A DNA stretch of 64,000 bases, taken from positions 62,001-126,000 of the forward strand of contig JAVHLY010000002.1 in the NCBI GenBank assembly GCA_031081585.1. The letters are read 5' to 3'. Position 1 is the stretch's first letter. Each line of letters starts with the position of its first letter. Of the stretch, positions 22,228 to 28,217 are shown piece after piece. This stretch comes from Armatimonadota bacterium (GTDB lineage: Bacteria; Sysuimicrobiota; Sysuimicrobiia; Sysuimicrobiales; Humicultoraceae). The translations under genes and the position numbers were made by a program. The notes below the pieces were generated by a model, which saw nothing but the letters and a program-made list of their open reading frames with translations, was not told the DNA's origin and did no database searches.

Positions 22228-22581
22228 TTACAGGTTGCTGCCCAGGAGGGTGACGCCGCCGCGCGTCATCCGGTCCACGGTCGCCTGCACCGCCCGGTAC
22301 TCCGCCTCGCTGTACACGTGCGGCTCCAGGCGAGGCAGGGCGAGCGTCTGGCGCACCACGGCATACGCCTCAGCGCGGGGCGGGTCGGCGTAGACCACCA
22401 GCAGGTCGACGTCCGAGGCGGCGGTGTGCCGGCCCCGGGCGTACGAGCCGAAGAGCACCACCCGCCTCAGCGGAAGGACCTGTGCCAGCGCCGGGAGGCG
22501 CGCGCGCAGGGCCTCCACCAGCGCCTCCCTAGTCCAGCGTGGATAGGAGACCCTGACAGAACTCGACGACCGCTTCCGCAT
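22228..22581 (-). CDS. MNT-type nucleotidyltransferase (antitoxin of a HEPN/MNT pair)
   Basis: 117-residue minimal nucleotidyltransferase. The signature VVLFGSYARGRHTAASDVDLLVV gives the GS motif and the two metal-binding aspartates (DVD). In HEPN/MNT systems this protein inactivates the HEPN RNase, in studied cases by adding AMP to a tyrosine. The ATG at 22581 overlaps the HEPN gene by 53 bases. No GTG or ATG occurs between that ATG and the conserved TREALVEALR region, so the long overlap appears genuine. The last residues (GGVTLLGSNL) look ordinary. Confidence 0.82.
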   Translation of the reverse strand: MRKRSSSSVRVSYPRWTREALVEALRARLPALAQVLPLRRVVLFGSYARGRHTAASDVDLLVVYADPPRAEAYAVVRQTLALPRLEPHVYSEAEYRAVQATVDRMTRGGVTLLGSNL

Positions 22582-22924
22582 GGGCGATCAGGCGCTCGGC
22601 CTCCGTTCGCGTGTACCGGCTGCTGGCCGACCCCGCCGGGTGGGCATTGGGATAGCGGGCGGGGATGTAGGCCTTGTCCAGTTCCAGGGCACGGTCGACG
22701 AGCGCGCCCGGGACGTCGGCGCGTGAGCGGAGCTCGCCGAGGAGGTCGGCCACCGAGTGGCCCCACGCCTCCGCCCCCAGACGCTGGAAGACGGCCTTCA
22801 CGGCCTTCTCGGCGGCCTGCTGCGCGGAGAAGCAGGCCCAGTTGTAGAACCCCCGTTCCGCGTCGCTCCTGGCGTGCTCCAGGTCGCGGCGGGCGTCCTC
22901 CATCCAGTCCCGGCTGCGCTCCAC
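22529..22924 (-). CDS. HEPN domain protein (putative RNase toxin)
   Basis: 131 residues, all helical: RDWMEDARRDLEHARSDAERG, then FYNWACFSAQQAAEKAVKAVFQ, GHSVADLLGEL, and SSRYTRTEAERLIAHAEAVVEF. This is the classic HEPN layout (Pfam HEPN, PF05168 type) with the GHS motif and a late Tyr-Thr segment. HEPN proteins of this group pair with MNT proteins as toxin-antitoxin modules. It is upstream of and overlaps the MNT gene on the minus strand, so both are made from one message. Confidence 0.82.
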   Translation of the reverse strand: MERSRDWMEDARRDLEHARSDAERGFYNWACFSAQQAAEKAVKAVFQRLGAEAWGHSVADLLGELRSRADVPGALVDRALELDKAYIPARYPNAHPAGSASSRYTRTEAERLIAHAEAVVEFCQGLLSTLD

Positions 22925-23386: not shown

Positions 23387-23830
23387 ATGGCCATCGATCG
23401 CGCCACCGTCGACTACGTCGCCCGGCTGAGCCGGCTGGCCCTCACCGAGGCCGAGCGGGAGGCCTTCACCCGCCAGCTCCGCGAGATCGTCGACTACTTC
23501 GCCCGGCTCCAGAGCCTGGACCTCGGCACGGTCCCCCCGACCGCGCACGTCCACGAGGGCACCAACCTCTTCCGGGAGGACATCCCCCGACCGTCGCTGC
23601 CGCGGGACGAGGTCCTGGCGGCCGCCCCCGAGGTGGAGGAGGGGTTCTTCGTTGTCCCGGCGGTGCTGGAGGAGGTCGTCCACGAATCCCCACCGCCCGT
23701 GCCGGAGGAGGCCGTCCACGAAGCCGCCCCACCGCCCGGCAGGGCCGACGGGCCGCATGGCTCCGGGGAGGTCGCCGACGAGACCGCCGGGCCGCCGCCG
23801 GACCGGGGCGGGGAGGGTCGCGCCGGCTGA
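23387..23830 (+). CDS. gatC: Asp-tRNA(Asn)/Glu-tRNA(Gln) amidotransferase subunit C, with C-terminal extension
   Basis: Small subunit of the GatCAB transamidosome, wrapped between GatA and GatB. Residues 1-95 are standard: [34 protein letters not shown], then [23 protein letters not shown] and [10 protein letters not shown]. It then continues for about 50 residues of Pro/Glu/Gly-rich sequence, including the near-repeat [10 protein letters not shown] / [11 protein letters not shown], up to a stop that overlaps the gatA ATG. Most GatC end near residue 95. An upstream in-frame ATG at 23375 would add four residues. Overlap with gatA indicates translational coupling. Confidence 0.9.
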
Positions 23831-25296
23831 TGCTCGACACCCTGCTGCCCGCCGCGAGCCTGATCGAGGGGCTGCGCCGCCGCGACTGGTCCGCGCTGGA
23901 GGTGGTGGACGCCTACCTGGCGCGCATCGAGGCGCTGGACGGGCAGGTGCGCGCCTACCTCTACGTGGACCCGGAGGCGGCGCGGGCGGAGGCGCGCCGG
24001 TGGGACCAGCGGGCAGCCCGGGGCGAGCCCCTGCCGCCGCTCGCCGGGATCCCGGTGGCGGTGAAGGACAACATCTGCACCCGCGGGGTGCCCACCACGT
24101 GCGGCTCCCGCATCCTGGAGGGGTGGCGGCCCCCCTACGACGCCACCGTGATGGTGCGGCTGCGCGAGGCGGGCGCGGTGCTGCTGGGGAAGACCAACCT
24201 GGACGAGTTCGCCATGGGCTCCTCCACCGAGAACTCCGCCTTCGGCCCCACCCGCAACCCCTGGGACCTCTCGCGCGTCCCGGGCGGGAGCAGCGGCGGC
24301 TCGGCCGCCGCGGTGGCGGCGGGGCTGGCCCCCTGGGCGCTCGGCACCGACACCGGCGGCAGCATTCGCCAGCCGGCCGCGCTGGCCGGCATCGTCGGCC
24401 TCAAGCCCACCTACGGCCGGGTCTCCCGCTCCGGGCTGGTCGCCTACGGCTCCTCGCTCGACCAGATCGGCCCGCTGGCGCGCACGGTGCGGGACGCGGC
24501 CCTCCTCCTCCAGGTGATCGCCGGCCCGGACCCGCTCGACGCCACCAGCGCGCCGGTGCCGGTGCCGGACTACCCGGCGGCGCTGGGCGGGGGCATCGAG
24601 GGGCTGCGCATTGGCGTGGCCCGGGAGGGGCGCGGCGAGGGGCTGCAGCCCGGGGTGGCGGCGGCGGTGGAGGCCGCGCTCGAGGTGCTGGCCGGGCTCG
24701 GCGCGGAGCTGCGCGAGGTGAGCCTGCCGATGATCGACTACGCGCTGGCCACCTACTACCTGGTGGCCACGGCGGAGGCGAGCAGCAACCTGGCCCGCTA
24801 CGACGGGGTGCGCCACGGCCTGCGCGTGGCGGCCCCGGACGTGGTGGAGATGTTCGCCCGCACCCGCGCGGCGGGCTTCGGCGCCGAGGTGAAGCGCCGC
24901 ATCATGCTGGGCACCTACGCTTTGAGCAGCGGCTTCTACGACGCCTTCTACCTGACGGCGCAGCGCGCCCGCACACTGGTGCGGCGGGACTTCGAGGCGG
25001 CGTTCCGCGAGGTGGATCTGGTGGCGCTGCCCACCTCGCCGACCGTGGCCTTCCGCCTGGGCGAGCGGGTGGACGACCCCCTGCAGATGTACCTGGCCGA
25101 CATCTTCACCGTCCCGGTGAACATGGCGGGCCTCCCGGGGATCTCCGTGCCGTGCGGCTTCGCCGACGGGCTGCCGGTGGGCCTGCAGCTCATCGGGCGC
25201 CCCTTCGACGAGGCCACGCTGCTGCGCGCCGCCCACGCCTACGAGCAGGTCACGCCCTGGCACCGCCGGGCGCCGGCCCTGGCCGCCGCCGCATGA
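23830..25296 (+). CDS. gatA: Asp-tRNA(Asn)/Glu-tRNA(Gln) amidotransferase subunit A
   Basis: Amidase-signature subunit that releases ammonia from glutamine for the GatB active site. 488 residues, full length. The Ser-cisSer-Lys triad is present: Lys79 in [10 protein letters not shown], cis-Ser near residue 154 in [11 protein letters not shown] and the nucleophile Ser178 in [12 protein letters not shown]. The C-terminal region [14 protein letters not shown] is typical. It starts inside the gatC stop (TGATG). A complete gatCAB operon implies that Gln-tRNA and/or Asn-tRNA is made by the indirect route. Confidence 0.96.
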
Positions 25297-25318: not shown

Positions 25319-26782
25319 ATGAGAGCCGTCACCGCGCGCGGCCTGCAGGTGGTGATCGGGCTGGAGATCCACGCCCAGCTCCTCACCGCCTCCAAGATGT
25401 TCTGCGGGTGCGCGGTGGCCTTCGGCGCGCCGCCCAACACGCTGGTCTGCCCGGTCTGCCTGGGGCTGCCGGGGGCGCTGCCGGTCCCCAACCGGCGGGC
25501 GGTGGAGCTGGGGTTGCGCACGGCGCTGGCCCTGGGCTGCCGCGTCCACCCGCGCAGCCAGTTCCACCGGAAGAACTACTACTACCCCGACCTGCCGAAG
25601 AACTACCAGATCTCCCAGTACCAATACATGGACCACCCGCCGCTGGCCACGGACGGGTGGCTGGAGATCGAGGTGGACGGGGAGGGGCGGGCCATCCGCA
25701 TCCGCCGGGTCCACCTGGAGGAGGACACCGGCAAGCTCCTCCACCCCCAGGACGGGCGGCCACGCTCGCTGGTGGACTACAACCGCTCCGGCGTGCCGCT
25801 GATGGAGATCGTCACCCAGCCCGACCTGCGCAGCCCGGCCGAGGCGCGGGAGTTCCTCCTCGAGCTGCGCGCGCTCCTCCAGACCCTGGAGGTGAGCGCG
25901 GGGCGGATGGAGGAGGGGACGCTGCGGGTGGACGCCAACATCTCGCTGCGCCGACCCGACGGCACCCTGGGCACGCGCACCGAGGTGAAGAACCTCAACT
26001 CCCTGCGCGCGCTGGAGCGGGCGCTGACCTTCGAGGCCGAGCGGCAGGCTGCCCTGCTGGCGCAGGGCGCGCCGGTGGTCCAGGAGACCCGCCACTGGGA
26101 CGAGCGCCGCCAGGTGACCTTCTCCACGCGCACCAAGGAAGAGGCGGAGGACTACCGCTACTTCCCCGAGCCCGACCTGGTGCCGCTCCACATCGACGAG
26201 GCGTGGCTGGACACGGTCCGGGCCAGCCTGCCGGAACTGCCGGCGCAGAAGCGGGCGCGCTACGTCACGGCGCTCGGGCTGGGGCGCCACGAGGCCAACC
26301 TGCTCGTCCGCGATCCCAAGCTCGCCAGCTTCTTCGAGGCTACCCTGGCCGCCTTCCCGCAGCCGCGCACCGTGGCCAACTGGCTGGTGGGGGACGTCGC
26401 CGGCGTCCTCAACGCCGAAGGGCGGGAGATCGACCAGACGGCGCTCACGCCCGCGCGCCTGGCCGACCTGCTGCGCCTGGTGGAGGAAGGCCGGATCAGC
26501 ATCCGCGCGGCCAAGGAGCTGCTGCCCGAGGTGATGCGCCGCGACGTCCCGCCGGCGGCGCTGGTGGCGGAGCGCGGGTTGGAGCAGCTGAGCGACCCCG
26601 AGGCCCTGGCCCGGGTGGTGGAGGAGGTGCTGGCTGCCCACCCCCGGCCCGCCGAGGAGTACCGCCAGGGGAAGGATCGCGCCCTGGCCTTCCTGGTCGG
26701 GCAGGTGATGAAGCGCACCGGCGGGCGCGCCAACCCCGACCTGGTCAACCGGCTGCTGCGGGAGCGCCTGCGGGATGCGTGA
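25319..26782 (+). CDS. gatB: Asp-tRNA(Asn)/Glu-tRNA(Gln) amidotransferase subunit B
   Basis: Kinase/transamidase subunit that activates the misacylated tRNA and adds ammonia. 487 residues. N-terminal [19 protein letters not shown] and [15 protein letters not shown], then [17 protein letters not shown], the substrate region [10 protein letters not shown] and [15 protein letters not shown], and the C-terminal YqeY-like tRNA-binding domain ending [16 protein letters not shown]. Cysteines in CGCAVAF and CPVC could hold the zinc seen in some GatB. Its last eight bases overlap the RlmD/TrmA-like gene. Confidence 0.96.
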
Positions 26783-28217
26783 GGCGGCTCCGTCTCCGTC
26801 CGCGTCCGTGGGGCGCGCGACGCCGTCGGCACGGGGCTCCGGACGCGTGGGGGACCGCGCGGGCGGCCTCCGCCCCCTGCGGCCGGGGACGCAGCTCACG
26901 GTGACCTTCTCGGCCATGGCCCCAGACGGCGCCGCCGTGGCTCGCGTCGGCCGGGTCCGTCTGGCCGTCCCCTACGGCATTCCCGGCGAGACCGCCGTCG
27001 TCGAGGTCACGCAGACCTCCCCGGTCCTGCGCGGCCGCATCGTCGGGCTCATGCGCAAGTCCCCCGATGCCACCGTCCCTCCCTGCCCGCACTTCGGCCG
27101 CTGCGGGGGGTGCCAGTGGCAGCACATCGTCCTGGATGGACAGCGCCGCCTGAAGCAGGCCATGGTGGTCGAGGCGCTGCGCGGCGCGGAGGTGGAGCCC
27201 CCGGCCGTAGCCCCCTGCGTGGGCATCGAGCCCTGGACCTACCGCACCGTGCTGGCCGCCACGATCAGCGGTCGGGCCGGCGTTCCCGTGGCGGGGTTCC
27301 ACACCTGGGGCGGGGGCGCGGTGGTGCCGGTGGAGTCGTGCGCCGTCCAGCACCCCACGAACGTGCAGCTCCTCCACGCCGTCCGTGAGGCGGTGGCGGC
27401 GCTGCGGCTGCCGCCGTACGACCCCCGGCTGCGGCGCGGCCTGGTCCGCGGCGTGGTGGGGCTGACCGCGGCAGCCACGGGGGAGGCTCTGGCGGTCCTC
27501 TCCACCACCGGCCCCCTCCCCGACCGCATGGCCTTCGTCCGCGCCCTCCTCGACCGGGTCCCCGGCCTCGTGGGAATCCTGCTCACCGTGCAGCGGCGTC
27601 CCCTCCCGCGGCTGCTCGGCCCGCGCCTCGACCTCCTGTGGGGACGGCCGTACGTCCAGGAGGAGCTGCTGGGGGTGCGCTGGCGCCTCGACCCCCGCCT
27701 GCCGGTCCTGCCCAGCCCGCGGGCGCTCAAGCTGCTCTTCGAGACCGTCCGCGAGGCGGCCCGGCTGCGCGGCGAGGAGCAGGTCCTCGAGGCGTTCGCG
27801 GAGGGCGGCGTGCTCACGCTGGCCCTGGCGGGGTGCGTCCGGCGGGCCGTCGGCGTGGTCGCCGACCGCGAGGCCATGACGGCGGCCTGGGCCACCGCCG
27901 CCGCCAACGGCATCGCCAACGCCGTCTTCTACACCCGCGACCCGGGCCGCGTGCTGGTCAAGCTCCACCGGCGCGGGGAGCGCAGCGACGTCCTCGTCCT
28001 CGCCCCGCCGGGTGCCGGGCTGCCGGCGGAGCTGGGTCCGGCGCTCCAGGCGGCAGGGCCCCACCGCCTGGTCTACGTGGCGCGGTCGCTGCGGGCCCTC
28101 GCCGAAGACCTGCGGCGCCTGCGCGGGTGGGGCTACGTCGCCGGAGCCGTCCGCCCGCTCGACCTCTTCCCCCAGACGAACCACGTCCACACCGTCGTGG
28201 CGCTGGAGCGCCGCTGA
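26775..28217 (+). CDS. RlmD/TrmA-like RNA methyltransferase homologue lacking catalytic residues
   Basis: 480-residue member of the uracil-C5 methyltransferase family (RlmD/RumA, TrmA). A TRAM-like RNA-binding segment comes first, followed by the iron-sulfur motif [14 protein letters not shown] with a fourth Cys in VESCAVQ. The catalytic half is degenerate. The SAM-binding DLYCGVGTF motif is replaced by [11 protein letters not shown]. The YVSCNP loop that carries the nucleophilic Cys reads YVARSL (Arg at residue 437). The general-base Glu of HVETV is His472 in HVHTV. Family knowledge says these residues are needed for 5-methyluridine formation, so this protein probably binds RNA without methylating it. 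The frame is open and well formed, so it is not an obvious pseudogene. Confidence 0.75.

Follow-up and report, generated by a model that had tools for sequence, protein, structure and literature searches.

We found that the gene directly following gatB in the window (the whole 64,000-nucleotide stretch of DNA analyzed here) encodes an RlmD-like protein, hereafter pRlmD, whose catalytic residues have been lost across most of a single uncultured phylum while the residues for an Fe-S cluster and for RNA-backbone contacts have been kept. pRlmD very probably has no m5U methyltransferase activity, and a role in binding RNA is likely. As an overall explanation, we favor a neofunctionalized, non-methylating RlmD paralog, namely an Fe-S-containing RNA-binding protein that probably acts as a folding or assembly factor for rRNA or tRNA, with roughly even chances that its role lies specifically in ribosome or tRNA maturation. 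The original prediction of an RlmD/TrmA-family protein without catalytic residues is thereby strongly supported, and it applies lineage-wide, as the losses and retentions were sought and found again in 26 aligned members.

The reading frame has the limits, strand and length first described for it (Table 1), and its start is overlapped by the last codons of gatB by 8 bases. gatC, gatA and gatB lie 5' of it on the same strand and were each identified with NCBIfam models, so the proposed linkage to gatCAB is real. Downstream of pRlmD is a class-III aminotransferase gene (NCBIfam name GABA transaminase).

Table 1. Coordinates in the window of pRlmD, its domains and key residues, and the gatCAB genes.
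Feature	Position	Strand	Remarks
gatC	23387..23830	+	NCBIfam TIGR00135
gatA	23830..25296	+	NCBIfam TIGR00132
gatB, conserved upstream neighbor of pRlmD	25319..26782	+	NCBIfam TIGR00133; synteny
pRlmD, RlmD-like protein without catalytic residues	26775..28217	+	480 aa open reading frame
TRAM domain, ~residues 36-96	26880..27062	+	Approximate boundaries; Pfam TRAM 36-88, below cut-off; AlphaFold strands 40-94
Central Fe-S-bearing RNA-binding domain, ~residues 97-312	27063..27710	+	Approximate boundaries; RlmCD/RumA alignment, conservation
Degenerate methyltransferase domain, ~residues 313-480	27711..28214	+	Alignment, conservation, AlphaFold
C104, Fe-S ligand position (RumA C81)	27084..27086	+	Invariant, 26/26
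C110, Fe-S ligand position (RumA C87)	27102..27104	+	Invariant, 26/26
C113, Fe-S ligand position (RumA C90)	27111..27113	+	Invariant, 26/26
R157, RNA-phosphate contact (RlmCD R127), kept	27243..27245	+	26/26; role from PMC6235398
C189, Fe-S ligand position (RumA C162)	27339..27341	+	Invariant, 26/26
V362, SAM-ribose Glu position (RlmCD E333), lost	27858..27860	+	Acidic in 0/26
A410, methyl-pocket Asp position (RlmCD D381), lost	28002..28004	+	Asp absent among the residues listed for the clade
R437, nucleophilic Cys position (RlmCD C408, RumA C389)	28083..28085	+	R16 H5 T2 Q1 S1 G1; Cys 0/26
H472, general-base Glu position (RlmCD E443, RumA E424)	28188..28190	+	H16; Glu 2/26

pRlmD scored 247.8 bits against TIGR00479, the NCBIfam equivalog model for RumA/RlmD (cut-off 183.55), and 13.2 bits against the Pfam m5U methyltransferase model, under the cut-off of 23. 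As TIGR00479 passes the protein despite its missing catalytic residues, RlmD as an automatic name is a false enzymatic label here. The AlphaFold model had a mean pLDDT of 91.3 and a pTM of 0.89, with disorder only in residues 1-29; canonical family members were part of the supplied alignment, which favors the family fold. Foldseek's best PDB matches to this model were RlmCD (TM 0.88), RumA with RNA (0.79) and RumA alone (0.77), followed by archaeal m5U enzymes and TrmA. pRlmD is thus predicted to have the complete RlmD fold (TRAM, central and class I methyltransferase domains).

For residue roles, pRlmD was aligned with two solved proteins of published residue function, RlmCD of S. pneumoniae and RumA of E. 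coli (PMC5614603, PMC6235398), and conservation was scored in 26 members of the pRlmD clade, 28 canonical paralogs and 28 outgroup proteins. Arg437 and His472, the residue numbers originally given for the changed nucleophile and base, were exact in this alignment. Across the 26 members, position 437 is R, H, T, Q, S or G and position 472 is H, Q, S, E, M or N; the nucleophilic Cys, the general-base Glu and the DPPR Asp are kept in 28/28 canonical paralogs and 28/28 outgroup proteins. Further replacements relative to RlmCD are R384 by G413, F281 by P310 and Q283 by L312. Compared with RlmD/RumA (the 23S rRNA m5U1939 methyltransferase; TIGR00479, PDB 1uwv/2bh2), with which it shares the three-domain fold, the four Fe-S cysteines and the RNA-phosphate Arg, pRlmD therefore lacks the nucleophilic Cys of the YxSCNP motif, the general-base Glu, the methyl-pocket Asp of DPPR, the uridine-binding Phe/Gln and the SAM-ribose Glu. 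In the alignments with RlmCD, RumA or the canonical paralogs, pRlmD showed no catalytic Cys or Glu at a shifted position, which disposes of the objection that these residues might simply lie elsewhere.

The original prediction had also listed the SAM loop as changed. This holds for families f1 and f2, where the loop is eroded, and holds less well for f5 and f6, where it is partly kept, and f7, where it is AGxGxY-like; some cofactor binding is thus possible in these three families. Unlike an intact SAM loop, the Cys, the SAM-ribose Glu and the Asp are missing throughout the clade. We infer a single, early loss of catalysis, followed by a fading of cofactor binding.

The retained residues form the second half of the pattern. 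The iron-sulfur motif, correctly described as intact, has its four cysteines in every member. The counterpart of R157 in RlmCD, R127, contacts an RNA phosphate, and its R127A substitution lowers activity by ~92-98% (PMC6235398). Q192 (RlmCD Q162) is likewise kept in 26/26, and H470 (RlmCD H441, an RNA-phosphate contact) is H or R in 25/26. Because the 26 aligned members share these losses and retentions, the pattern is not due to chance. The methyltransferase domain has a mean net charge of +5.5, versus -0.8 in the canonical paralog, and such a shift from an acidic to a basic pocket would fit RNA contact in place of SAM chemistry, although it could have other causes. An RNA-binding role, one of the two functions that had been suggested, gains indirect support from the predicted fold, the invariant RNA-phosphate Arg, the H/R at the second contact and the basic methyltransferase domain. 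The other suggestion was redox sensing. A sensor that reads redox state or iron supply through its Fe-S cluster and regulates translation genes is compatible with the 26/26 retention of the cysteines. However, this retention is not specific, since the canonical RlmD paralogs all keep the same four cysteines, apparently for structural reasons, and we consider a sensor improbable.

A second, canonical RlmD is encoded in the window's own genome (G000:C5; DLYCGVGTF, DPPRAG, YVSCNP and HVE intact; 359 bits against TIGR00479), and the two genes occur together in many genomes. This co-occurrence would suit a protein that regulates the active RlmD, for instance as a noncatalytic subunit or by competing for its rRNA site, and inactive methyltransferase partners are known from other families. 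However, canonical RlmD, which most relatives have, was not found in genus g2 (G001, 97% complete; G007, 89%) or g18 (G026, 93%; G023, 86%), and G001 and G026 keep pRlmD without it, which makes an obligate partner unlikely, allowing for possible assembly gaps in these two genomes. Overall, we give the regulatory reading a low probability, similar to that of the sensor. Methylation of m5U1939 has possibly been lost in these two genera.

A quick, unrooted tree placed all 26 pRlmD proteins in one clade (SH-aLRT 100) and the canonical RlmD proteins in a separate group (100). The single clade and a branching order that follows the host families suggest an old, vertically inherited gene. A recent duplication of the lineage's own RlmD was also considered and is unsupported, given the two separate, fully supported groups. 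In close pairs, dN/dS was 0.12-0.28 for pRlmD versus 0.15-0.24 for the canonical paralog of these same genomes (G000-G004, a distant pair, was left out because of saturation); this resemblance to the active paralog indicates that pRlmD is not decaying. A decaying pseudogene could account for the eroded SAM loop and for branches longer than those of the canonical clade, but it conflicts with these dN/dS values, the four cysteines in 26/26, the confident intact predicted fold and a frame that is almost always open (the fragmentary copy G041 has an in-frame stop, the only one). We rejected this reading on dN/dS and conservation, and consider it extremely improbable. Instead, pRlmD is a conserved pseudoenzyme: its catalytic residues are gone, whereas its predicted fold and its orthologs persist under purifying selection.

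Constraint is unevenly distributed along the protein. Amino-acid distances are larger than those of the canonical paralog by a factor of 1.15 for the central Fe-S domain, 1.3 for TRAM and 1.5 for the methyltransferase domain, and among canonical-conserved positions, 14 are kept and 47 lost in the methyltransferase domain, with 23 kept and 29 lost in the central domain. This bears on whether pRlmD might be an enzyme with changed chemistry, in which a pocket remodeled with Arg437, His472 and Arg388 uses another cofactor or nucleotide for a different RNA modification or a redox reaction. The invariance of R388 (26/26, with Gly/Ala in the canonical family), the recurrence of R at 437 and H at 472 (16/26 each) and the partial retention of motif I in f5, f6 and f7 are consistent with such an enzyme. 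However, a catalytic pair would not be expected to vary as positions 437 and 472 do among clade members, and constraint is most relaxed in the methyltransferase domain. We therefore regard changed chemistry as unlikely, though it is the strongest of these rivals, and prefer the non-methylating RNA-binding protein.

pRlmD orthologs were identified in 31/43 Ca. Sysuimicrobiota genomes, fragments included, the relatives named ANGP1 belonging to this phylum (order Sysuimicrobiales). They are present in 23/23 genomes of families f1, f2, f5 and f7 that are at least 90% complete and in the single f6 genome (72% complete); none was found in seven f4 genomes or the single f3 genome. A clade profile gave >600 bits for the core pRlmD proteins tested, <=363 for canonical RlmD and 257 for a divergent copy from genus g17, and a search with it through 254 genomes from four further phyla found no pRlmD. 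A pattern scan of an 84,980-species collection returned 10 close loci, and those matched to records were from this phylum. By these tests, with a scan that favors close relatives, pRlmD is seen only in Ca. Sysuimicrobiota; other phyla may have lost the Cys independently.

Outside genus g17, pRlmD directly follows gatB on the same strand in 25/25 readable cases, namely the window and 24/24 relatives. In g17 (L133, L134 and L135), pRlmD is located away from gatB and forms the most diverged branch (length 1.79); the general-base Glu is again present in 2/3 of these copies and the Cys is absent. Across the phylum, the presence of pRlmD does not track GlnRS or AsnRS, so pRlmD does not just mark indirect aminoacylation, and we rejected dependence on GatCAB as the cause of the linkage. 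The genes may simply have been inherited in this order, with no functional significance. In a Bacillota MAG (L052:1715-4392), a catalytically intact RlmD overlaps the end of gatB in the same arrangement as pRlmD, so the position after gatB may predate the loss of catalysis. GlnRS itself is present in the majority of f1 genomes and in several from f2, and was found neither in the genome of the window nor in f3-f7. A second AsnRS-like protein, with a score under the cut-off, occurs in several f2 genomes.

The aligned residues show that pRlmD has had its residues for holding the flipped uridine, binding the SAM ribose, placing the methyl group, attacking C6 (Cys) and removing the C5 proton (Glu) replaced, with the cysteines of the Fe-S site and the contacts to the RNA backbone retained under purifying selection. 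Under the favored explanation, it would still carry a [4Fe-4S] cluster, whose occupancy is assumed from the cysteines, and this would stabilize an RNA-binding groove. A structured RNA (23S rRNA near U1939, or a tRNA) would be bound via the central/TRAM groove and left unmodified, so that pRlmD, transcribed together with gatCAB, would serve in folding or assembly. As a speculation, the cluster might tie the amount or the activity of pRlmD to redox state or to the supply of Fe-S clusters.

Known systems offer partial parallels. RlmCD (PDB 5xj1/5zq0) is the top structural match and shares the RNA contacts R127/R157 and Q162/Q192, but it is a mirror case, being catalytic without an Fe-S cluster (PMC5614603), so that Fe-S cysteines are not universal in the family. 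As RlmCD catalyzes without a cluster and pRlmD keeps the site without catalysis, the RumA-type cluster appears to serve structure or RNA binding. METTL17/Rsm22, a mitoribosome assembly factor, has a methyltransferase-like fold and four Fe-S cysteines that are more conserved than its SAM motif (PMC11046306). It resembles pRlmD in fold type, in cysteines versus SAM motif and in a proposed RNA-binding assembly role; however, it belongs to a different methyltransferase family, was not present by name among the best 50 Foldseek matches listed for pRlmD, and can be likened to it by mode of action only, the assembly function of pRlmD being putative. A full bacterial counterpart of a METTL17 checkpoint, in which a dead RlmD-derived protein uses its [4Fe-4S] cluster to gate RNA binding and ribosome or tRNA maturation follows Fe-S or redox status with GatCAB co-expressed, is an unlikely extension, which we offer tentatively.

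TrmA/Trm2 belongs to the same wider m5U family as pRlmD. TrmA is catalytically active and is not known to have the Fe-S/TRAM layout of pRlmD. RNA-folding (tRNA chaperone) roles of TrmA/Trm2 are separable from methylation, and the bovine mitochondrial Trm2 homolog lacks a key catalytic residue (reviewed in PMC11301382); in pRlmD, catalysis has been lost throughout a whole clade. RNA-folding roles independent of methylation are suspected for TrmA-family RNA methyltransferases, and the pRlmD clade beside its active paralog is a natural separation-of-function experiment, with catalysis removed and the Fe-S and RNA-backbone sites kept. Conserved pseudoenzymes from RNA methyltransferase families are known; the pRlmD clade adds a variant to them, and searches of the open-access literature turned up no account of one derived from RlmD.

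Shortly upstream of gatCAB, the window also contains a HEPN-domain protein gene (22529-22924, minus strand; Pfam PF05168, E=2e-35) adjoined by an MNT-type nucleotidyltransferase gene (22228-22581, minus strand; MntA antitoxin model E=2.4e-8, under the cut-off). Together (22228-22924), these are likely a toxin-antitoxin pair.
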